Below, in pieces: positions 1,260-31,577 of a stretch of 64,000 nt of DNA. Source of the DNA: Dillenia suffruticosa (Eukaryota > Streptophyta > Magnoliopsida > Dilleniales > Dilleniaceae). The stretch is from assembly GCA_033439265.1 (NCBI GenBank), contig JAVTVX010000035.1, forward strand, positions 14,224,001 through 14,288,000, written 5' to 3'. The stretch's first letter is position 1; each line of letters begins with the position of its first letter. The translations under genes and the position numbers were made by a program. Under the pieces are notes generated by a model that did not search any database, was not told the origin of the DNA, and saw only the letters and a program-made list of their open reading frames with translations.

Positions 1260-3026
1260 TTGGTTGATTAAATCAAATTATTATCGGTTATGATTATATT
1301 ATCTACATAAACTAATGCTATAATGATTTTTCTATCTAGTTTCCTAATAAAGAGAGAAGTGTCACTATTACATTTTTTGAAATCATGATAAAAAAAAGTT
1401 GAGCTAAGTTTGGCATACCAAGCTTTTGGAGATTGTTTAAGACCGTAGATTGCTTTCCTAAGTTTGCAAACTTTGTTGAGTTGGTGAGAAAAGCCCGGCG
1501 GAATCTCCATGTACACTTTCTCTTCTAGATCACCTGCAAAGAAAGCATTGGTTATGTCCATTTGAAACATTGGCCAAGAGTGATTGATTGCAAGGGACAT
1601 CAAGACTCGAATTATGTTCATCTTGTTTCCTTGTAGTCTACTCCATAAACATGAGTGAAACCCTTTGCTACTAATCTTGCTTTATATATATCAAAGCTTC
1701 CATCACTCTTGTGCTTGATCTTATAAACCCATTTACATCCTACCACCCTTTTTCCTTTAGGAAGAAATGATAACTCCCAACTTCTATTTCTTTCTATGGC
1801 TTCTAGCTCATCCTTCATGGCTTGGATCCATTGGGGATGTTGTTTTGCTTCTTCAAAGTTTCTAGACTCTTGATGAAGGTCTAAGTTCTTGATGAAATTT
1901 TGATAGCAACAAAACATGTTAGCAACCGAATAATATAGGGAAATGGGGAGAGAAGTTACCTTTGAGTTATAGAAAACTCCTTTGTTGATCCATTCCGAAG
2001 GAGGGAGTCTAAGCCTTGTTGATCTTCGAAGAGGAGGGGAGGCTGCTCCTCAATACTTTATTCTTCTTCCTCTATAACTTTCCCTTGATCTAAGTTGTCT
2101 CCCCTTTCCTCTTGGATAGATTCATGATCAGATTGAGACGAGGTTGATTCTTCTTGAGTTGGATCATTTTCAGCTTGAATTGGTTGTTCTTCTTCTTCTT
2201 CATTTTGATGAGAAGCTTCTTTGATTAAGGGAAGGACTATATTCCAATGGTCTTGTGCTCCTCTTTCCTTTGATTGCTCTTGATCCTTTTTCCCTGCAAA
2301 ATAAGGTTCTCTTTCTACAAATATCACATCCTTATAAGTGTATAGCTTTTTGGTTAGAGGATCATAACATTTATATCCTTTTTCAAAGGTAGAGTATCCT
2401 AAAAATATGCATTTTCTCCCCCTTTCATCTAGTTTATTTCTAAAGTTTTCTGGTACATGCACATAACAAATGCACCCAAAAACTCTTAAGTGTGAGGTAC
2501 TAGGTTTTCTTCCTAGGAGTAGTTATAAAGGGGACTTTCCTTCTAGCACTTGAGAGGGCATAAGGTTTATAAGGTGGGCAGCGGTTTTAATGGCTTCACT
2601 CCAAAACTTTTTAGGTACATTGGAGTGAAACATCATAACCCTAACCGTTTCTAGTAAATGTCTATTTTTCCTTTCGGCAACTCTATTTTGTTGAGAAGTG
2701 TACACACAAGACTTTTGATAAATAATTTCTTTTTCTTCTAGAAAATTTTCAAGTGCATGGCTAGTGTATTCCCCCCATGATCCGATCTAAGGATTTTGAT
2801 GTTTGTATTGAATTGCTTGGTCATATATCTATAATAGCTCTTAAGTGTTTCAAATACTTCAGATTTATTTACTAATAATTACATCCAAGTGTATCTAGTT
2901 TTGTGATAATGAAGGTTATAAAGTATTTGAAGCCATTATGAGATTCTATGGGTGAAGTCCGCACATTGGTATGAATGAGTTCAAAGACATTTTATTATAT
3001 TGTGTTTGAGATTGGATAGTACACTT
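1260..3026 (-). pseudogene. H1 pol remnant: integrase core to reverse transcriptase
   Basis: Minus-strand frames show the integrase end (near QQNRVAERKNRH, about 2680-2705), the linker (FRNKLDERGRKC, FLGYSTFEKGYKCYDP, about 2330-2460), an acidic spacer, and reverse transcriptase (GCKWVYKIKHKSDGS, MDITNAFF, YGLKQSPKAWY, YVDNIIIT) down to about 1260. It resembles E1 closely but is broken several times and is non-functional. The left limit is the E0 insertion and the right limit the E1 insertion. Confidence 0.85.
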
Positions 3027-3171
3027 TGTTGAAATAAAGGACAATTAGAGTTTATGTCCTAAGGGAATGAAGTCTAAATATATAGTTTTAATTTGTGTAG
3101 ATTTTTCATTCTCATTGTAATCCCTTTAAGGTTTCTAAGTTGGGCCCTAAATGGGCCTTGCCCGGATTGTT

Positions 3172-3229
3172 CGGGCTGGGCCCTTCGGGCCCAGCCCGGG
3201 CCAGCAAATGGGGGACCATCAGGTCCCCC
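3172..3229 (+). other. Two perfect GC-rich hairpins in the E1 LTR U3
   Basis: Hairpin 1 has 12-base arms CGGGCTGGGCCC (3172-3183) and GGGCCCAGCCCG (3187-3198) around TTC. Hairpin 2 has 8-base arms GGGGGACC (3210-3217) and GGTCCCCC (3222-3229) around ATCA. Both lie upstream of the TATA box, so they are outside the 5' part of the transcript but inside its 3' end when copied from the 3' LTR. Near copies recur in the LTRs of E2, H1, G1 and the LTRs at 34218 and 62873. The function is unknown. Confidence 0.85.
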
Positions 3230-3377
3230 AACGGCTAGCAAAAAACAGCCGTTGGAGCTGTCCCCAACGGCTAGTAAAACTAGCCGTTGGGGACAGCCCC
3301 AACGGCCATAATTGGAGAGGGCACAATGCCCTCTCCTCTCTCTCTTTTCTTATCTCCTTGCCCCTCTTCTTGTTCTC

Positions 3378-3385
3378 TATAAATA
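3378..3385 (+). promoter_or_regulatory. TATA box of the E1 5' LTR
   Basis: TATAAATA is followed by GGGC and lies about 130 bp before the LTR end, the normal place for the copia promoter. The same box occurs at 7947-7954 in the 3' LTR. Confidence 0.8.
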
Positions 3386-3512
3386 GGGCTTATATGTTTC
3401 TTTGGAAGGTATGAAAAACATGCCTTCATTGCATGTAAACTCTCTTTGAATTCTCAATTAAATTCTTGAAGTTTCTTTATTCATTCTTAGCTTGCTATAT
3501 TTAAATTTCAAC

Positions 3513-3524
3513 ATGGTATCAGAG
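3513..3524 (+). other. Primer-binding site of E1
   Basis: TGGTATCAGAGC is complementary to the 3' end of plant initiator-Met tRNA and directly abuts the LTR. It is also coding: the LTR's last A plus TG forms the gag start codon, and the site encodes Val-Ser-Glu. Confidence 0.9.
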
Positions 3525-6500
3525 CCATCTTCGATACCTTCATCTTCCGGTGTTGGTAATCCTCCACCACAAATTAGTACTTCCATGTTTACTTCCATTC
3601 TCTTAGATTCATCAAATTACAATGCTTGGCAAGACACCATCAAGAGATCCTTGAACTTTTTCAATCTTGAAAATCACATATTGGAGGATCCCTTAGATGA
3701 TGCCAACCCTACATTCAAATCATGGAAGAAGCAAGATGATCAAGTGGTGGTGCTACTTCAAATGTCTCTTGACAAAACCCACAAAGCAATGGCTACTTGT
3801 ATTCCAAATGCAAGGGCTTTGTGGGATCAAATGCATGCTCTATATGGGCAAGAGACCAACACCGGACGAATCTTTGAGCTCAAAAGAAAAATCTTCAAGA
3901 TTCAAAAAGGAGGTAAAACTCTTCCCGAATACTTTGGGGAATATAGGGATCTTTGGAATGAGCTTAATATTCTTAGGCCTCCAACTTCTAATCTCAAGAC
4001 CATTCTTCAAAGAAATGATGAAGACATGACCTTTGGTCTTCTTATGGGTCTTGGAGATGAATATGCTCCAATTCGTCAAGAAATCCTTAGAATGAAGATT
4101 TTCCCTTCATTCCAAGAAGTTCAATTTATGATTCAAAGGGCCGAGACTAGCATGAGGCTAGAGGAGTCTACCAAGCTCAAATCCGAAGCCCAAGCCTTCA
4201 AGGCTGTTCAAGATGATCACATGGTCAACAAAGCTCAAAATTTCTTTAAAAAGGATGTTTGCACAAATTGCAAGAAGCCCGGCCACAAAAGGGAAAGGTG
4301 CTGGTTTCTCCACCCTAATTTGCGCCCAAAGAACAACAAGAAGGAGGTGGAACAACCAGCTCATGCTCAACAAGTCTCCCAAGTGGCTGCACTCGAATCC
4401 AAGATGGAGGAGATGCAAAAAGAGATGAAAAAGCTCCTTAGCCAAGTTGCCCTTCACTCCGGTAACAACTTGAACTCATCTCATTTAAATAAATGGTTGA
4501 TTGATTCGGGCTGTGACAATCACATGGTAAAAGATAAAGACAAAGTTAGGAAATTCATTCCTCTATCTAGTTATAAGATTGTCAAGGTTGCTAATGGTCA
4601 AAAACTAAAAGTTGATCATCTAGGTGAAGTTGAACTCCTAGGAAAGAAAACTAAAGCGTTATATGTACCAAAATTCAACTCTAACCTCATGTCCATTAGC
4701 AAAATTACCAAAGACCATAATTGCAAAGCCACTTTTGATCCTAACCAAGTTATCTTTCAGGATCTCAAAACGAATCACTTGATTGGCAAGGGGTCTAGGA
4801 GGAACAACTTATATTTTTTGGACCAAGAAAATCAAGCTTTTGGAGTTTAAAGTCAAGCGTTTTCTATATGGCATGCCCGTCTAGGTCACCCGGGAGATTT
4901 AGCTTTGAAACGCCTATTTCCAAGTCAAAAAGTAGAAAATAGGCATTGCAAAGCTTGTATTCTTGGAAAACAAACTAAAGTGTACTATCCAATCTCAAAT
5001 ACAATATATGAAAAGGCCTTTGAACTCATTCATACCGATGTGTGGACTTCACCCATGGAATCTCATAATGGCTTTAAATATTTTGTAACCTTCATTGATC
5101 ACAAAACTAGATACACTTGGGTGTACTTATTAACTGCCAAATCAGAAGTATTTGAAGCACTTAAGAGCTATTATAGATATGTGACCAAGCAATTCAATGC
5201 AAATATCAAAATCCTTAGATCGGACCATGGGGGGGAATACACTAGCCATGCACTTGAAGATTTTCTAGAAGAAAAGGAAATTATTCATCAAAAGTCTTGT
5301 GTTTACACTCCTCAACAAAATGGAGTTGCCGAAAGAAAAAATAGACACTTACTAGAAACGGCTAGGGCTATGATGTTTCACTCAAATATACCTAAAAAGT
5401 TTTGGAGTGAAGCCATTAAAACCGCTGCCCACCTTATAAACCTTATGCCCTCTCAAGTGCTAGAAGGAAAATCCCCTTTAGAACTACTCCTAGGAAGAAA
5501 ACCTAGTATCTCACACTTAAGAGTTTTTGGGTGCATTTGTTATGTGCATGTACCAGAAAACTTTAGAAATAAACTAGATGAAAGAGGGAGAAAATGTGTA
5601 TTTTTAGGATACTCTACCTTTGAAAAAGGATATAAATGTTATGATCCTCTAACTAAAAAGCTATACACATCCAAGGATGTGATATTTGTAGAAAAAGAAC
5701 CTTATTTTGCAGGAAAAGAGGATCAAGAGCAACCAAAGGAAAGAGGAGCACAAGACCATTGGAATGTAGTCCTTCCCTCAATCAAAGAAGCCTCTCATCA
5801 AAATGAAGAAGAAGAACAACCAATCCAAGCTGAAAATGATCCAACTCAAGAACAATCAACCTCATCTCATTCTGATCATGAATCCATCCAAGAGGAAGGG
5901 GGAGACAACTTAGATCAAGGGCAAGTTATAGAGGAAGTAGAACAAAGCATTGAGCAGCCGCCTCCTCCTCCTCTTCGAAGATCAACAAGGCTTAGGCTCC
6001 CTCCTTCAGAATGGATCAACAAAAGAGTTTTCTATAACTCAAAGGTAACATCTCACCCCATTTCCCAATATTATTCGGTTGCTAACATGTCTTGTAGCCA
6101 TCAAAAATTCATCAAGAACTTAGACCTTCATCAAGAGCCTAGAAACTTTGAAGAAGCCAAACAACTTCCTCAATGGATCCAAGCAATGAAAGATGAGCTA
6201 GAAGCCTTAGAAAGAAACGGAACTTGGGAGTTATCATCTCTTCCTAAAGGAAAAAGGGCAGTAGGATGTAAATGGATCTATAAGATCAAGCACAAAAGTG
6301 ATGGAAGCATTGATAGATACAAAGCAAGATTAGTGGCAAAGGGCTTTACTCAAGCTTATGGAGTAGATTACAAGGAAACGTATGCTCCGGTGGCCAAGAT
6401 GAACACAATTCGAGTCTTGATGTCCCTTGCAATCAATCACTCTTGGCCAATGTTTCAAATGGACGTAGCCAATGCTTTCCTTCAAGGTGATCTGGAAGAG

Positions 6501-24411: not shown

Positions 24412-24654
24412 TGTTGAAATGAAGCATAATTGGATTTCTTAGCTCTCCCTAAAGAAGCCCTAAAGAGAAGTCATAAAATGAGCTTCGAAATTGATACCCT
24501 TAAGTTGGTTATTCTTTGAGTCCTTTTTCAATCCATTTGTAAGGCCCTAAATGGGCCTGGCCCGCAGGGGTTCGAGCTGGGCCTTCGGGCCCAGCCCGGG
24601 CCGACAAATGGGGGACAAAGGGTCCCCCATTGGCTTGATAAACTAGCCGTTGGG
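24412..24654 (+). repeat. G1 5' LTR, left part
   Basis: TGTTGAAATGAAGC starts the LTR. It contains GGGCCTTCGGGCCCAGCCC and GGGGGAC...GTCCCCC hairpins and ends at the F2 target copy TTGGG (24650-24654). The right part is 28943-29168. Confidence 0.85.
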
Positions 24655-25110
24655 TGTTGGATTTTTGACTAAGAAGAGAGAGAAATCTAATAAACTTCTG
24701 GTTTTTATTGATGTAGTAGAATGATACAAAGGAAGAGAGATTATCTTCCTCTTAATTTTACAAGGAGAGCAATAGCTCTATTTATAGGCAAAGGGAGAAA
24801 AATAGCCAGTAGAGAGAGAACAAAGTCAATATTCCCGTTGGGGCTCAAACCCCAAGGAATTCCAACAGCTAGTTTTTGGACTGTTGGAATATACATTGCC
24901 CAAACTGCCCCTAGCTATTTGGGTTTACCTCTTAGACTTTTCTCCATATTTTTGGGCTTCATTGGGCTTGTTTTTTAATGTATTTTGGGTCATAAATATG
25001 TTGTCAAATTCTGAACATTAAAAAATAAAAGGCCCAATGTTTATGACATTATCATATTTTCAAGTTGAATACCTTGAGACTTATCTTCATCTTCTCCCTT
25101 ATTTTTAACA
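24655..25110 (-). repeat. F2 left LTR (3' LTR, complete)
   Basis: This 456-bp LTR runs from TGTTGGATTTTTGAC to TTATTTTTAACA on the plus strand and is followed by CTCCCCCTC (polypurine tract, minus strand). It is the same family as the LTRs at 31578-32036 and 61577-62030. Minus-strand TATA box near 24780. Confidence 0.9.
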
Positions 25111-25465
25111 CTCCCCCTCAAGTTAGGTGCATAGATGTCTATGGACCCTAACTTGCTAAGGATGTGCTGAAGATGTTTCTCAGTTGTTGCCTTAGTGAAA
25201 ATGTCAGCTAGCTGGTCTTCACTTCTAACATATGAGGTTGAAATTGTCTTGTTTTCTAATTTTTCTCGAACAAAATGACAATCAACCTCAATGTGCTTCG
25301 TTCTTTCATGAAATACTGGATTGGCAGCGATATGAAGAGTTGCTTGATTATCGCAATGTAGAAGAATAGGAGCGATAGTAGGAAATCCCATCTCCTCAAG
25401 TAATGCCTTTAGCCAAACTATTTCGCTTGTAGCCGCTGCCATTGCTCTGTATTCTGTCCTCTCCG
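25111..25465 (-). pseudogene. F2 RNase H C-terminal segment (minus strand)
   Basis: Minus-strand frame with [52 protein letters not shown] and the tail NLRGSV ending at the LTR. It starts at about the residue where the plus-strand RNase H copy at 26830 stops, showing that the two pieces derive from one RNase H interrupted by the rearrangement. Confidence 0.88.
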
Positions 25466-26835
25466 CTGGCTCCTCCACTTCGACGTTCCACCAGATTGAG
25501 GCTTCCTCCCTCAGAGTGGATCAACAGAAGAGTTTATTACAATTCTAAGGTAACTCACTATCCTATTTCAAATTACTATTGTGTATCTAACACTTCCTCA
25601 AGCCATCAAGGGTTCTTGAGTGGCATTGACTCATCACAGGAACCTAAGGCTTTTGATGAGGCAAATACCAAACCCGAATGGAGACAAGCTATGCTTGAAG
25701 AACTAGATGCATTGAATAAAAATGGGACGTGGGAGATTACTACTCTCCCTAAGGGAAGAAAGGTTGTCGGGTGTAAATGGGTGTTCAAAATCAAGTATAA
25801 AAGTGATGGATCCATTGAACGCTACAAGGCAAGACTTGTAGCCAAAGGATTCACACAAACTTATGGAGAAGACTACACTGAGACTTTTGCCCCTGTTGCC
25901 AAAATGAAAACGATAAGGGTTTTGATGTCAATTGCAACCAATGGAGAATGGCCAATGTATCAAATGGACGTGAAGAATGCTTTCCTTCAAGGGGACTTAG
26001 ACGAAGAAATCTACATGCAAATTCCCCAAGGGCTAGATGAGGATTCAAACATCAAGGTGTGTCGTCTTAAAAAAGCAATCTATGGGTTAAAACAATCTCC
26101 TCGTGCCTGGTTTGCAAAATTAAGTTCAGCACTTCTTGGTAATAACTTTAAGAAATCCATTAGTGATTCCTCCATGTTTACTAAAGTTAACAATGAAGAA
26201 ATCACTATTGTTCTTATTTACGTAGATGATATAGTTATTACAGGAAGTGATATGAATGGTATTGATCAAGTTAGAAATTTTCTTAAATCTACTTTTGAGA
26301 TTAAAGATTTGGGAAAACTAAAGTATTTCTTAGGAATAGAGCTTGCCTATTCTCATAAGGGGCTAGTTCTATGCCAAAGGAAATATGTACTTGACCTTTT
26401 GCAGGAAACTGGAAAGGTAGGAGCTAAACCAGCAGCAACTCCTATATCCATAGCAGAACGAGCACAAGGTGATGAAGAAATGTTCCAGGATATTCCTAGA
26501 TATCAAAGACTTGTGGGGAGGCTCATCTACCTCACCATTACAAGACCAGATATCACTTATGCCGTCAGCTTAATCAGCCAACGGATGCATGCTCCAAGGA
26601 TTCAAGATTGGAAAGCAGCAGAAAAAATTCTCAAGTATTTAAAAAAGCTCACCAGGAAGGGGAATTCTTATGAAAAACAACCACAGCATGGAGATTTATG
26701 GCTACTGTGATGCAGATTGGGCTGGGGATGTCACGGACAGGAGATCCACCACCGGCTACTGCATGTTCGTAGGAGGAAATCTTGTAACATGGAAAAGCAA
26801 GAAACAATCTGTTGTATCCAGATCAAGCGCAATGT
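25466..26835 (+). pseudogene. F2 linker, reverse transcriptase, RNase H (inverted segment)
   Basis: Plus-strand frame with the pre-RT linker LRRSTRLRLPPSEWINRR, reverse transcriptase (GCKWVFKIKYKSDGS, MDVKNAFLQGDLDEE, YGLKQSPRAW, YVDDIVIT) and RNase H up to CDADWAGD and SRSSA. It is inverted relative to the flanking RNase H end and LTR. It is largely open with about one or two breaks. Confidence 0.88.
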
Positions 26836-26865
26836 TTCAGAAGATCTCTCAATGGAGCAAAACTT

Positions 26866-27297
26866 CATAAGTCTCAAGGTATTCAACTTGAAAATATGAT
26901 AATGTCATAAACATTGGGCCTTTTATTTTTTAATGTTCAGAATTTGACAACATATTTATGACCCAAAATACATTCAAAAACAAGCCCAATGAAGCCCAAA
27001 AATATGGAGAAAAGTCTAAGAGGTAAACCCAAATAGCTAGGGGGCAGTTTGGGCAATGTATATTCCAACAGTCCAAAAACTAGCTGTTGGAATTCCTTTG
27101 GGTTTTAGCCCCAACGGGAATATTGACTTTGTTCTCTCTCTACTGGCTATTTTTCTCCCTTTGCCTATAAATAGAGCTATTGCTCTCCTTGTAAAATTAA
27201 GAGGAAGATAATCTCTCTTCCTTTGTATCATTCTACTACATCAATAAAAACCAGAAGTTTATTAGATTTCTCTCTCTTCTTAGTCAAAAATCCAACA
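26866..27297 (+). repeat. F2 internal LTR, plus strand, lacking its first bases
   Basis: It matches the K and K2 LTRs from ATAAGTCTCAAGG to AAATCCAACA but lacks about 25 bp of the normal start. A TATA box (TATAAATAGAGC) lies at about 27165. It is followed by a primer-binding site (27298-27309) and gag, so it is in a normal 5' context, but it lies inside the insertion. Confidence 0.85.
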
Positions 27298-28858
27298 TGG
27301 TATCAGAGCAAACATCGACTCCGGGGTTGGGAAATTCTCTTCCTCAAATCTCTTCCTTTCAAATCCAACTTTTCTCCCAAATTATTCTAAGCTCAACCAA
27401 TTACTTCCAATGGGCTAGTCATATCAGAAGATCTCTCAATGGAGCAAAACTTCTGTCTTTCATTACAAAAGATCCTATGGATCGGCTAGACCCACGATTT
27501 GATGAATGGAAGGAGCTGGATGATCAAGTGTTCCTATTGCTAACAAGCTCCATGGATCAAGCACACAAAAATATGGTAATTGTTGAAAAGAAGGATAACT
27601 TAACCCATCTTCATCACCAACCAAGTGCATCTACTTAGAAGTCCAAAAATCAGCATGCATTGTCCAGCAAGCATGGCCCATTTGGGCAGCCTAAACCAAC
27701 CCAAAATACATTCAAAAATAGGCCCAAGGAAGCCCAAAAGTTTGGAGAAAAGTCTAGGAAGCAAACCCAAATAGCTAGGGGCAGTTTGGGCAGCATATAT
27801 TTCAACAGTCAAAAAACTAGCTGTTGAAATTCCTTGGGGTTTGAGCTCCAACGGGAATATCACTTTCTACTGGCTATTTTTCCCTTTTCTCTATAAATAG
27901 AGCCTCATTGTATCTCCAAAAACTATGAGAAAAATGCTCTCAAATCTGTCCATGTATGCTCTCATTCTTCTTCAATAAAATTCAGAAGTATTCTTCATTT
28001 CTTGTGCTCTATTTTTTGATATTTCAACAGTAATGTGCTGTCCGAGTTCCAAATCCTTATGGGAGCAAATGTATGGGTTATATGGTCATGAATCAAACTT
28101 GAGCAGAATATTTGAAATACAAAAAATGATTGCGACCATCCAAATGGAGGAGAAATCAATTACACAATTGTTCGGAGAACACGAGGACTTGTGGAATGAG
28201 CTCAACACATTGAGACCTCTCACAAGTGATATAAAAGTGCTGCAAAAGAGACAAGATGAAGACAAGGTGTTTTCATTGCTCTCATCACTCAATGAGTCAT
28301 TTGTACAACTTCGACAGGAAATTCTTCGAATGAAAGAATTTCCATCATACCAAGATACTCGATTTATGATTCAAAGAGCTACAGCTTCTCAAAGGTTTGA
28401 GGAAAGCAATCAGTCCAAAAGTGAAGTTCATGGGTTCTCCACAAAGCAGAATGAGCAAGCTGCAAATAAGGCTCATCAGGGAATAAAAAAGGTGTGTTCT
28501 CATTGCAAAAAGTTGGGACATACCAAGGATGGTTGCTGGTTTCTTCATCCTAACCTTAAACCTGAGTTCATCAAGAAAAAAGAGCAAGAGAGGAGGGAGC
28601 AAAATGCTCAACCAGCTGCAAACAAAGCAAATCTGACATCTCAAAAATTAGGAAAATCCTCCTCAGGTACTTGCTCTAACTCATCTGTTACTTCTTCAAA
28701 ATGGTTGATAGATTCAGGTTGTGATCACCATATGGTCAAAGATAAGCAAAATTTTCAGAATCTTGAACCTCTCCTAGAACCTAAAATGGTTAAAGTTGCG
28801 AATGGACATAATTTCAAAATTAAGCAAATTGGGGATGTTGAAATATTTGGAAGAAAAT
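27297..28858 (+). pseudogene. F2 gag and protease, interrupted by a solo LTR
   Basis: Gag begins MVSEQTSTPGLGN across the LTR/primer-binding-site junction. After the solo LTR it continues with YGHESNLSRIFEIQK, the zinc knuckle C-X2-C-X4-H-X4-C (about 28495-28540) and the protease motif WLIDSGCDHHMV (about 28702-28737), up to VEIFGRK. There it joins the minus-strand LTR piece through a short stretch of shared sequence (AAAGGCC-like). K and K2 are close relatives. Confidence 0.88.
27581..28029 (+). repeat. Solo LTR of the E3 family with target repeat
   Basis: A single 449-bp LTR, TGTTGAAAAGAAGG to ATTTCAACA, with no internal domain. The 5-bp target GTAAT is repeated at 27576-27580 and 28030-28034. 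It is nearly identical to the E3 LTR at 10802-11250. It is presumed left by recombination between the two LTRs of a full element that had inserted into F2 gag. Confidence 0.95.
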
Positions 28859-28942
28859 AAAAGGCCCAATGTTTATGACATTATCATATTTTCAAGTTGA
28901 ATACCTTGAGAGTTATCTTCATCTTCTCCCTTATTTTTAACA
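28859..28942 (-). repeat. F2 right LTR piece (84 bp)
   Basis: On the minus strand this is the first ~84 bp of the F2-family LTR (TGTTAAAAATAAGGG...), ending at the target copy TTGGG. It supplies the right integration end of F2. Confidence 0.88.
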
Positions 28943-29168
28943 TTGGGGACAGCCCCAACGGCTAGTAAGGAGAGGGCTAAGGCCCTCTCCTCCCTCTCAT
29001 TTTGTCTAACTTCTCTTCCTCTCTTCTTTCTCTATAAAGAGAGGATGTCCTCCCTTTTGTAAAGTATGAAAAAATGTTTCAACTACTTGTATACTTTCTT
29101 TGAGATATCAATAAAATCTTTGAAGTATTCATTCATAGTTTGTCGCTTGCTTCTTTAAAATTTCAACA
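28943..29168 (+). repeat. G1 5' LTR, right part
   Basis: After the repeated target TTGGG it continues with GACAGCCCCAACGGCTAG, a pyrimidine-rich stretch, TATAAAGAG (about 29032) and the end ATTTCAACA. The primer-binding site follows at 29169. Together with 24412-24654 it makes an LTR of about 464 bp. Confidence 0.87.
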
Positions 29169-31577
29169 TAGTATCAGAGCAGGCTTCGATACCTTCTTCA
29201 TCCAGTCTTGGTGATCCACCACCTCAAATTAGCACTTCAATGGTCACTTCCATTCTCCTAGATTCATCAAACTACAATGCATGACAAGACACCATTAAGA
29301 GGTCTTTGAATTTCTTCAACCTTGAAAATCATATATTCGAAAACCCTCTTGATGATGCTGATCCTTTGTTCAGAGCATGGAAAAAGAAAGATGATCAAGT
29401 GGTGGTGCTTCTACAAATGTCTCTTGACAAAACCCACAAAGCAATGGTCACTTGTATTCCAAATGCAAAGACCTTGTGGGACCAAATGCGCACTCTTTAT
29501 GCTCAAGAGACCAATACCGGCAGAATATTCGAGTTGAAGAAGAAAATCTTCAAAATTCAAAAAGGAGGAAAGACCCTACCCGAATATTTTGGGGAATACA
29601 GGGATCTTTGGAATGAGCTTAATGTTTTGAGGCCTCCAACCTCAAATCTCAAAACACTCCTTCAAAGAAATGATGAAGACATGACTTTTGGTCTTCTTAT
29701 GGGTCTTGGAGATGAATATGCTTCTATTCGTCAAGAGATTCTTAGAATGAAGATATTTCCTTCATTCCAAGAAGTCCAATTTATGGTTCAAAGAGCCGAA
29801 ACAGGTATGAGGCTTGAGGAATCAACCAAGCTCAAATCTGAAGGTCAAGCATTCAAATCTGTCCAAGAAAGGCATCCAGCCTACAAAGCTCAAAATTTTG
29901 CTAAAAAAGACATATGTTCTCATTGCAAGAAACCAGGCCATAAAAGAAAGAAGTGTTGGTTTCTCCATCCTCACTTGCGGCCAAAGAACAATAGAAAGGA
30001 TCATGAACAACCAGCAAATGCACAACATGTCTCTCAAGTGGCCGCTCTTGAATCCAAAATGGAAGAAATGCAAAAAGAGATGAGGAAAATTGTTGGACAG
30101 ATTGGTCTACATTCTGGTAACCTTCTAAACTCATCTCATTCTAATTCATGGCTCATCGATTCTGGTTGTGACAATCATATGGTCAAAGATAGAAGCAAAA
30201 TTAAAAGACTTATTCCTCTCTCTGATCATAGAATTGTCAAAGTGGCTAATAGTGAAAAATTAAAGGTTGATCATTTAGGCGAAGTTGAATTACTTGGCAT
30301 AAAAACTAAAGCTTTATATGTGCCTAAACTCAATTCTAACCTTCTGTCCATTGGAAAAATAACTAAAGAACAAAATTATAAAGTCATTTTTGATCCTAAT
30401 GAAGTTGTATTTCAGGACCTCCAAACGAATCACTTGATTGGCAAGGGGTCTAGGAGGCACAATCTATACTACTTGGATCAAGAAAATCAAGTTTTTGCTG
30501 CCCAAAATCAAATGCACTCATTATGGCATGCTCGTCTAGGACATCTTGGGAATTTAGCTTTGAAACGCTTATTTCCAAAACTAGAAGTAGAAGATAGGCA
30601 TTGCAAAGCTTGTGTTCTTGGAAAGCAAACTAGGATGTACCATCCCATTTCAAATACAATATATGAAAATACTTTTGAACTTGTGCATTCTGATGTTTGG
30701 ACTTCCCCCATAGTATCCCATAATGGATTTAGATATTTTGTGACCTTCATTGATCACAAAACTAGATATACTTGGGTATACCTATTGGTAACTAAATCTG
30801 AGGTTTTTGAAACCCTTAAGAGTTATTATAGATATGTGACCAAACAATTTAATGCCAACATTAAAATCATTAGGTCCGATCATGGGGGTGAGTACATTAG
30901 TCATGCCTTTGAAAATTTCCTAGAAGAAAAAGGGATCATTCACCAAAAGTCTTGTATTTACACTCCACAACAAAATGGAGTTGCTGAAAGGAAAAATAGA
31001 CATTTACTAGAAACCGCCAGGGCTATGATGTTCCACTCTAATATGCCTAAAAAGTTTTGGAGTGAGGCAATAAAAACCGCTGCCCATCTCATTAATCTTA
31101 TGCCTACTCAAGTTCTAGGAGGAATATCCCCATTAGAATTACTCTTAGGAAGAAAACCCAATATCTCCCATCTTAGAGTTTTTGGATGCATATGCTATGT
31201 TCATGTACCTAAAAATTTCATAAACAAGTTAGAGGAAAGGGGGAGAAAATGTGTATTCTTAGGATACTCAACATTTGAAAAAAGGTATAAATGTTATGAT
31301 CCACTAACCAAAAAACTATACACATCCAAGGATGTGATATTTGTAGAAAGAGAACCTTATTTTGCAGATAAAGAAGATCAAGATCAAGCTGGAAATGGAG
31401 AAGCTCAAGATTTATGAAACATTACTCTTCCAACTATCAATAATCCCTCTCATCTGAACATTGAAGAAGAACCAGTTCCGAATGTTCATGAAGATCCAGC
31501 CCAAGAAGACTCCTCACCATCACATTCTGATCATGAAACCTTTCAAGAGCAAGGGGAGATGATTCGGATCAAGAGCT
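29168..31577 (+). pseudogene. G1 gag, protease and integrase
   Basis: Gag (PQISTSMVTSILLDSSNYNA, LNFFNLENHIFENPLDD), zinc knuckle C-X2-C-X4-H-X4-C (about 29914-29955), protease WLIDSGCDNHMV (about 30148-30183), integrase finger (WHARLGHLGNLALKRL, HCKACVLGKQTR), core (HSDVWTSP, DHGGEYIS, PQQNGVAERKN) and the start of the acidic linker. It is close to E1 in sequence, with a few breaks. It ends where the K LTR begins at 31578. Confidence 0.9.

Follow-up and report, generated by a model that had tools for sequence, protein, structure and literature searches.

The copia-type insertion F2 raises the question of how an element with intact outer LTR ends came to hold an interior lying mostly in the opposite orientation. 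F2 occupies positions 24655-28942 of the window, which is the whole 64,000-nucleotide stretch analysed here from contig JAVTVX010000035.1 of Dillenia suffruticosa, with coordinates given on the plus strand. To map its pieces we used L012, an uninverted genomic copy of 5,038 bp with a 456-bp LTR and the flanking repeat AAATA, as a ruler, and its positions are given as reference (ref) coordinates. Since the pieces of F2 match this ruler at ~99% and its outer ends are exact LTR termini, the pattern is more than chance. The mapping thereby confirmed the scrambled, partly inverted copia insertion that the first-pass annotation had described.

From the left, F2 starts on the minus strand with the end of RNase H and the full 3′ LTR (24655-25454, ref 5038 to 4239; LTR at 24655-25110), and continues on the plus strand with a piece running from reverse transcriptase (RT) to RNase H (25454-26830, ref 2856 to 4231), which is inverted relative to the outer ends and matches Pfam RVT_2; base 25454 is common to both pieces. 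Two plus-strand fillers follow, namely AATGTT, six nucleotides without explanation (26831-26836), and a 30-bp gag patch (26837-26866, ref 583-612) whose second copy lies at 27424-27453. The LTR without its first 26 bp, the primer-binding site and the gag start are then found inverted on the plus strand (26867-27580, ref 27-739), as is the gag to protease piece (28030-28858, ref 735-1563), which matches Pfam Pol_BBD. The outer right terminus is the U3 end of the 5′ LTR on the minus strand (28854-28942, ref 89 to 1); AAAAT (28854-28858) is common to this end and the gag-protease piece, and the minus-strand LTR end piece, previously given as 84 bp, is 89 bp long when these 5 bp are included. Absent from F2 are ref 4232-4238 and ref 1572-2855, the latter being the part of its family that would correspond in position to rve, which lies upstream of reverse transcriptase in the frame of a related element (29285-31417). 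The first-pass annotation had recognized the interior order of RT-RNase H, truncated LTR and gag-protease but missed a separate solo LTR of a related family at 27581-28029 (449 bp, TG...CA, flanking repeat GTAAT). This LTR splits the F2 gag piece, its parts are ~79% like the F2 LTR, and it is outside the F2 rearrangement. RNase H had also been read as divided at about the same residue (25465 and 26835); the split is real, but base by base its ends are ref 4231 and 4239, with 7 bp lost, and the overlap is only apparent. A 5-bp duplication at this split had been suggested by a BLAST overlap (4227-4231) and was discarded on the base-by-base ends, and a 14-bp homology at 25454-25467 was an artefact of alignment extension through mismatches. 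Nor was the RT piece 100% identical to the copy checked, its value to L014 being 99.56%.

The parent family of F2 is a young Ty1/copia LTR retrotransposon. In Pfam searches the F2 pieces matched RVT_2 (8e-75) and Pol_BBD (7.9e-12), Retrotran_gag_2 reached 26.3 bits, just below the cut-off of 27, and the short RNase H piece matched no Pfam family. The uninverted copies L012 and L014 (flanking repeats AAATA and AACTC) have TG...CA LTRs, a primer-binding site, a polypurine tract and a 5-bp target duplication. We take the LTR-adjacent sites in this family to be the primer-binding site beside the 5′ LTR and the polypurine tract beside the 3′ LTR; the polypurine tract adjoins LTR position 1, and a TATA-like box is located at LTR position 325.

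F2 was inserted in the LTR of another family, and TTGGG is exact at both of its ends (24650-24654 and 28943-28947), as had been reported. The further claim of a perfect target duplication stands only as probable, since two TTGGG copies ~34 bp from each other are usual in the host LTR and the flanks alone are no proof. Judged from the BLAST distance between its two flanks, with the sequence inspected for four of the nine long and both short copies, the host LTR had 28-29 extra bp at the site in 9 of 11 fetched copies and was without them in two (L026 and L027). In the longer form TTGGG is repeated, at a distance of 34 bp in L028, and F2 lies between its two occurrences. No genome match with 3 or fewer mismatches was obtained for the short empty site that F2 implies.

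The new observation is that one internal junction of F2 is not unique in the genome. At 28854-28866, LTR position 89 adjoins ref 1571 in inverted orientation, the fusion lying at a 13-nt imperfect inverted repeat in which LTR 77-89 and ref 1559-1571 agree at 12 of 13 positions. This junction, 89|1571, occurred four times in the 596-Mb host genome (at most 3 mismatches; contigs C35, C27, C2 and C1), in insertions that have intact outer LTR termini and the separate flanks TTGGG, TACAC, ATAAT and GTTTC, and whose other junctions differ. In F2 the inverted protease-gag-LTR arm runs from the junction at ref 1571 down to 27; L011 has the layout 1-89, 1571 to 16 and then 1977-5038, and L009 measures 1,647 bp and terminates in U3 at both ends. 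The reciprocal junction had no genome match at up to 3 mismatches. Given this recurrence in four separate insertions with their own flanks, and the absence of the reciprocal, the 89|1571 inversion most likely formed before integration. The evidence points to a repeated copying error before insertion rather than later damage of F2 alone.

A 12/13 repeat as such is not unusual. In dinucleotide shuffles scored for exact repeats, the longest exact repeats were 11-16 nt compared with 11 in the element. The element holds 10 distinct inverted-repeat pairs agreeing at 12 or more of 13 positions (11 window pairs, two overlapping), and 77-89/1559-1571 is the sole one with an LTR arm. No genome match was found for a control junction placed at a different 12/13 inverted repeat (1097/2996), and junctions are therefore not predicted by the strength of a repeat alone. 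If U3 had served as the primer, the inverted copies should have the LTR base at the mismatch at ref 1564; all four inverted rows do, and the other base is present in all 13 tabulated uninverted rows.

Could one ancestral rearranged element have passed 89|1571 to the other three by copying and recombination? The identical crossover in all four insertions would fit such a history, and L009 and L011 belong to the same marker group and have variant 260A in common. That variant is also present in the uninverted L018, to which L009 and L011 are closer (5 and 3 differences, respectively) than they are to each other (8 differences). F2 falls in a different marker group, and F2, L009 and L011 have no private variant in common over 457-1563. 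An L009-like element, lacking two direct LTRs, would moreover not be expected to replicate normally. Any recombination in the stretch from 1106 to the junction might conceal a common origin, but we regard descent from a single rearranged ancestor as unlikely. The 89|1571 inversion probably arose at least twice, and L009 and L011 need not be independent of each other. Loci L002-L008 were left out of the analysis.

We also considered inversion and deletion after normal integration, by ectopic recombination or break repair in the resident element at the F2 locus. The second F2 inversion, in which 2856-4231 is flipped relative to 4239-5038, lends itself to this explanation. After an earlier scoring that covered 40 of 578 and 40 of 922 candidates, the left junction, 2856|4239, was recounted by pattern and occurred once genome-wide; only 1 bp of sequence is shared there, and the RNase H breakpoints are 8 bp apart, as from one local break. 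A local event would nevertheless leave 89|1571 at three other loci, with other partners and their own flanks, unexplained, and an inversion at the inverted repeat conflicts with the missing reciprocal junction. As an account of F2 as a whole, later inversion at the locus is therefore improbable. The first-pass annotation had favoured rearrangement before integration and had suggested a search for the same internal junctions at other loci; the favoured branch is supported for 89|1571, which does recur at other loci, and the 2856|4239 inversion is compatible with either timing.

Self-integration, which had also been suggested, would have LTR termini of the cDNA attack internal sites before chromosomal integration. 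L010, a related copy, has a U3 terminus attached directly near ref 4396, and autointegration of retroviral DNA yields deletion or inversion circles, according to the available part of one report (PMC2644782). The internal junctions of F2, L009 and L011, however, contain no LTR terminus, no 5-bp duplication was seen at any F2 junction, and circular products would not be expected to leave both outer ends free. The junction sequences refute autointegration as the sole cause of F2, and we give it very little weight as an explanation. An assembly error is conceivable in a family with many copies ~99% alike but highly improbable with one junction at four loci, each bounded by its own exact 5-bp flanking repeat.

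We consider it reasonably probable (roughly 65%) that F2 is the integrated product of aberrant reverse transcription, in which U3 DNA switched onto a plus-sense template at the repeat and inverted copying followed; the template switching named in the first-pass annotation fits the 89|1571 junction. Plus-strand DNA would have started at the polypurine tract, at LTR position 1, and stopped near 89, and its 3′ end may have paired over 12 of 13 nt with a plus-sense template at about 1559-1571. That template could have been genomic RNA still uncopied or plus-strand DNA, the choice of template and the strand direction both being inferred. RT would then have copied it in the minus sense back into the LTR, giving a molecule that begins with a genuine U3 terminus and goes on as inverted sequence. 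With the TATA-like box where it is, copying into U3 to 27, 16 or 1 would require either DNA as the template or one more strand transfer. Copying down to position 1 would produce two U3 termini, integrated as such in L009; otherwise the inverted arm may have been joined via short fillers to a normal 3′ part with a U5 terminus, as in L011 and F2. The 2856-4231 flip in F2 could reflect a further switch or end joining, and the composite cDNA would finally have been inserted by integrase. More broadly, priming from a second primer may go wrong repeatedly in this copia family at a single short inverted repeat, so that some cDNAs would carry U3 at both ends and others an inverted 5′ half, and both kinds would integrate normally; we hold this proposal to be evenly balanced.

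Genome-wide, family termini with at most 2 mismatches numbered 490 for U3 and 372 for U5. We inspected 13 regions around U3 ends for which no exact U5 partner was listed; they were chosen visually, not at random, among those of the 490 U3 ends that were listed, and none had an opposite-orientation family piece at 85% identity or more. These regions showed ordinary, older or truncated pieces, and the U3 surplus was not taken as a sign of two-U3 elements. L017, considered as a joined dimer, was actually one copy inserted in the LTR of another. L009 suggests that copia integrase can insert two-U3-ended DNA in a living genome, and the mechanism, if true, would give small elements bounded by U3 at both ends a natural origin. 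The single inversion point common to four insertions indicates that some of the scrambling predates integration and follows a rule testable in cDNA. Scrambled LTR elements are easily mistaken for decayed copies, and other genomes can be screened for the pattern of a U3 end, an inverted interior and an own target duplication.

Among open-licence papers, represented mostly by titles and the beginnings of abstracts, we found neither a recurrent U3-to-inverted-interior junction nor an integrated two-U3 LTR element. Garfinkel is said to have described autointegration of Ty1 cDNA in 2006. Autointegration resembles the F2 case in that cDNA is rearranged before chromosomal integration and inversion products arise, and the L010 join could be such a product, but F2 differs in its junctions without LTR termini and in outer ends that remained free (PMC2644782, in the portion available). 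HIV-1 proviruses, too, are integrated with internal pieces inverted: one with an inversion (1.3%) and one with an inversion and a deletion (1.3%) appear in the accessible part of PMC9278108, and that of PMC8264403 counts template switching as one source of defects in proviruses; frequencies vary with the pipeline (21% or 2.4% in PMC8264403). The same portions of the two reports mention neither a provirus with two U3 ends nor an inversion point that recurs at an inverted repeat inside U3. In foldback templated insertions at yeast double-strand breaks, foldback pairing likewise primes an inverted copy, but these are mostly ~5-34 bp at chromosome breaks and not kilobase pieces of retroelement cDNA (PMC11724301, available text). 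Another close parallel is LINE-1 twin priming, in which, as far as the accessible text of PMC2837659 goes, a second primer copies the template the opposite way before the first copy is complete, and the insertion, bounded by target duplications, consists of two pieces whose order is inverted and which are separated by an internal deletion. L011 has this form, with an inverted 5′ piece, a direct 3′ piece and an internal deletion, as does F2 with a further flip. LINE-1, however, primes at the chromosomal target with target-site primers (PMC2837659, same portion), whereas the U3 end of F2 would prime during LTR-element cDNA synthesis, before the integrase step. Their LTR termini are exact and their 5-bp flanking repeats fixed, which also separates these insertions from target-primed non-LTR reverse transcription. 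By analogy, the 89|1571 step would thus work like LINE-1 twin priming without being a member of it, and, if true, would be its LTR-retrotransposon counterpart.

The scrambled copia insertion F2 (window 24655-28942) was mapped on the genomic copy L012, an uninverted member of its family (5,038 bp, LTR 456 bp), whose positions number all pieces given here, descending where inverted. In element orientation, F2 consists of 1-89, 1571-735, a solo LTR insert, 739-27, 612-583, 6 nt, 4231-2856 and 4239-5038, such that all pieces between 1-89 and the direct 4239-5038 are inverted except the solo LTR, and only 1572-2855 and 4232-4238 are absent relative to L012. Pfam matched RVT_2 and Pol_BBD on the inverted pieces, where gag scored slightly below the cut-off, and gave no match for the short RNase H piece. 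Both outer termini are complete, with TTGGG on either side, in agreement with the LTR ends and the exact TTGGG repeat described in the first-pass annotation. Since the insert in the inverted gag piece (window 27581-28029, 449 bp) has TG...CA ends, GTAAT on both sides and 99% matches on contigs C9 and C16, it is a separate solo LTR; it belongs to a related family and is in parts about 79% like the LTR of F2.

When the three junctions of F2 were searched in the host genome, the left (2856/4239, RNase H region) and middle (4231 via filler to 27) junctions each had one full-length match among 40 scored candidates, F2 itself, whereas the right junction (89/1571, U3 end to protease-gag) had four. 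With up to 3 mismatches allowed, genome-wide pattern counts gave the left junction once and the right junction four times (3 forward, 1 reverse); for comparison, the family has 490 U3 termini when up to 2 mismatches are allowed. Recurrence at other loci, a check proposed from the first reading, was found at three loci for the right junction but for neither the left, by pattern count, nor the middle, among its 40 candidates. The 89/1571 fusion is all that F2 and these three insertions have in common. L009 (contig C27, L009:7133-8779) is a 1,647-bp element of 1-89 and 1571-1 with a U3 end at each side and TACAC flanks, and it sits within a related element that extends beyond it in both directions. 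L010 (C2, flanks ATAAT) is a copy with many jumps, running 5038-4396, 1-89, 1571-1450, 2277-2306, about 2239-3003, 636-650 and 3465-1. L011 (C1, flanks GTTTC) runs 1-89, 1571-16, 30 nt and 1977-5038; the 30-nt filler between its inverted arm and 3' part (L011:6429-6458) has no match to L012 above 11 nt and is perhaps host- or RNA-derived.

A genomic inversion through a repeat would leave a reciprocal junction. Because a genome-wide search allowing up to 3 mismatches found none, and in all four insertions the outer termini are intact and flanked by 5-bp repeats, the sequence evidence places the 89/1571 inversion before integration. The rearrangement before integration favoured earlier is therefore supported for this junction, but the second inversion, seen in F2 only, with 2856 joined to 4239 and 4231 to 27 via a 36-nt filler, could have arisen by an RT jump, by cDNA end joining or at a later time. 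The distance of just 8 bp between its two RNase H breakpoints suggests a single break or a single switch. By gag-protease markers, F2 falls in an 840A/908C/1106G group, whereas L009 and L011 fall in an 840G/908T/1106A group; the L010 piece 1450-1571 is uninformative. Over 457-1563, no private variant was common to F2, L009 and L011 among 19 rows (hits of at least 98% identity with more than 650 sites, outside L001-L008 and L023-L034). L009 and L011 differ from the uninverted L018 at 5 and 3 positions and from one another at 8, each being closer to uninverted copies. Considering the marker groups, the lack of a common private variant and this closeness, the sequences point to at least two separate 89/1571 events, or to one event plus recombination in the 465 bp adjoining the junction.

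LTR 77-89 and reference 1559-1571 are inverted copies with one mismatch. Among ten distinct inverted-repeat pairs of this 12/13 quality (11 pairs, two of them overlapping) in 4,582 non-redundant positions, this is the sole pair with an arm in the LTR; a junction was searched for at one other pair and none was found. The longest exact inverted repeat in the element is 11 nt and shuffles gave 11-16, so none exceeds chance length. On this comparison, which covers exact repeats, the 12/13 repeat guides the 89/1571 junction but does not alone explain the preference. At the mismatch site, 1564, the LTR base is present in 4/4 inverted rows and the other base in 13/13 uninverted rows of a tabulation restricted to longer rows. 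If U3 acted as the primer, 12 of 13 positions would pair and the LTR base would be retained, and copying in the opposite direction would pair over 5 nt only; we infer the former direction. Because of a TATA-like box at LTR 325, copying on into U3 would need a DNA template or an additional strand transfer.

F2 is located within an LTR from another copia family; at this site, 9 of 11 fetched copies of that LTR are longer by 28-29 bp than the other two (L026, L027). Those longer copies whose sequence was inspected have two TTGGG motifs (spacing 34 bp in L028), and the flanks of F2 combine the first half of motif one with the second half of motif two. The short site implied by removing F2 was not found elsewhere in the genome. 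In one reading, slippage had removed one motif from the host LTR and the insertion of F2 produced a true duplication; in the other, the target lacks 34 bp. We read L026 and L027 as having lost a motif by slippage in another register. Slippage with a true duplication is preferred, because both F2 termini are exact and the flanking repeats of the three sister insertions are unambiguous in the sequence seen. One or two copies of a palindrome-like motif, CTAGCCGTTGGG...CCCAACGGCTAG, are present in the host LTR (window 24600-24654 and 28943-28995; L024-L034), where slippage has apparently added or removed a copy.

Among the matches listed, U3/U5 ends of the F2 family are concentrated in a single mid-contig region on several contigs (C1 8.92-9.26 Mb, C2 8.73-9.57 Mb, C4 11.9-12.3 Mb, C9 13.78-14.26 Mb), as might be expected of a centromere-seeking element. 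One family copy (L017:4101-4102, L048, L049) lies within the LTR of a second copy, at about LTR position 391-396, with a flanking repeat read by eye as TCTAC.

Proviruses with inversions form a recognised class of HIV-1 defects (PMC9278108, PMC8264403), autointegration leads to inversion circles (PMC2644782), and twin priming leads to inverted L1 halves (PMC2837659). In comparison with these systems, as the cited excerpts describe them, the copia family of F2 differs by its recurrent point at an inverted repeat between U3 and the interior, and by an integrated two-U3 element, L009.
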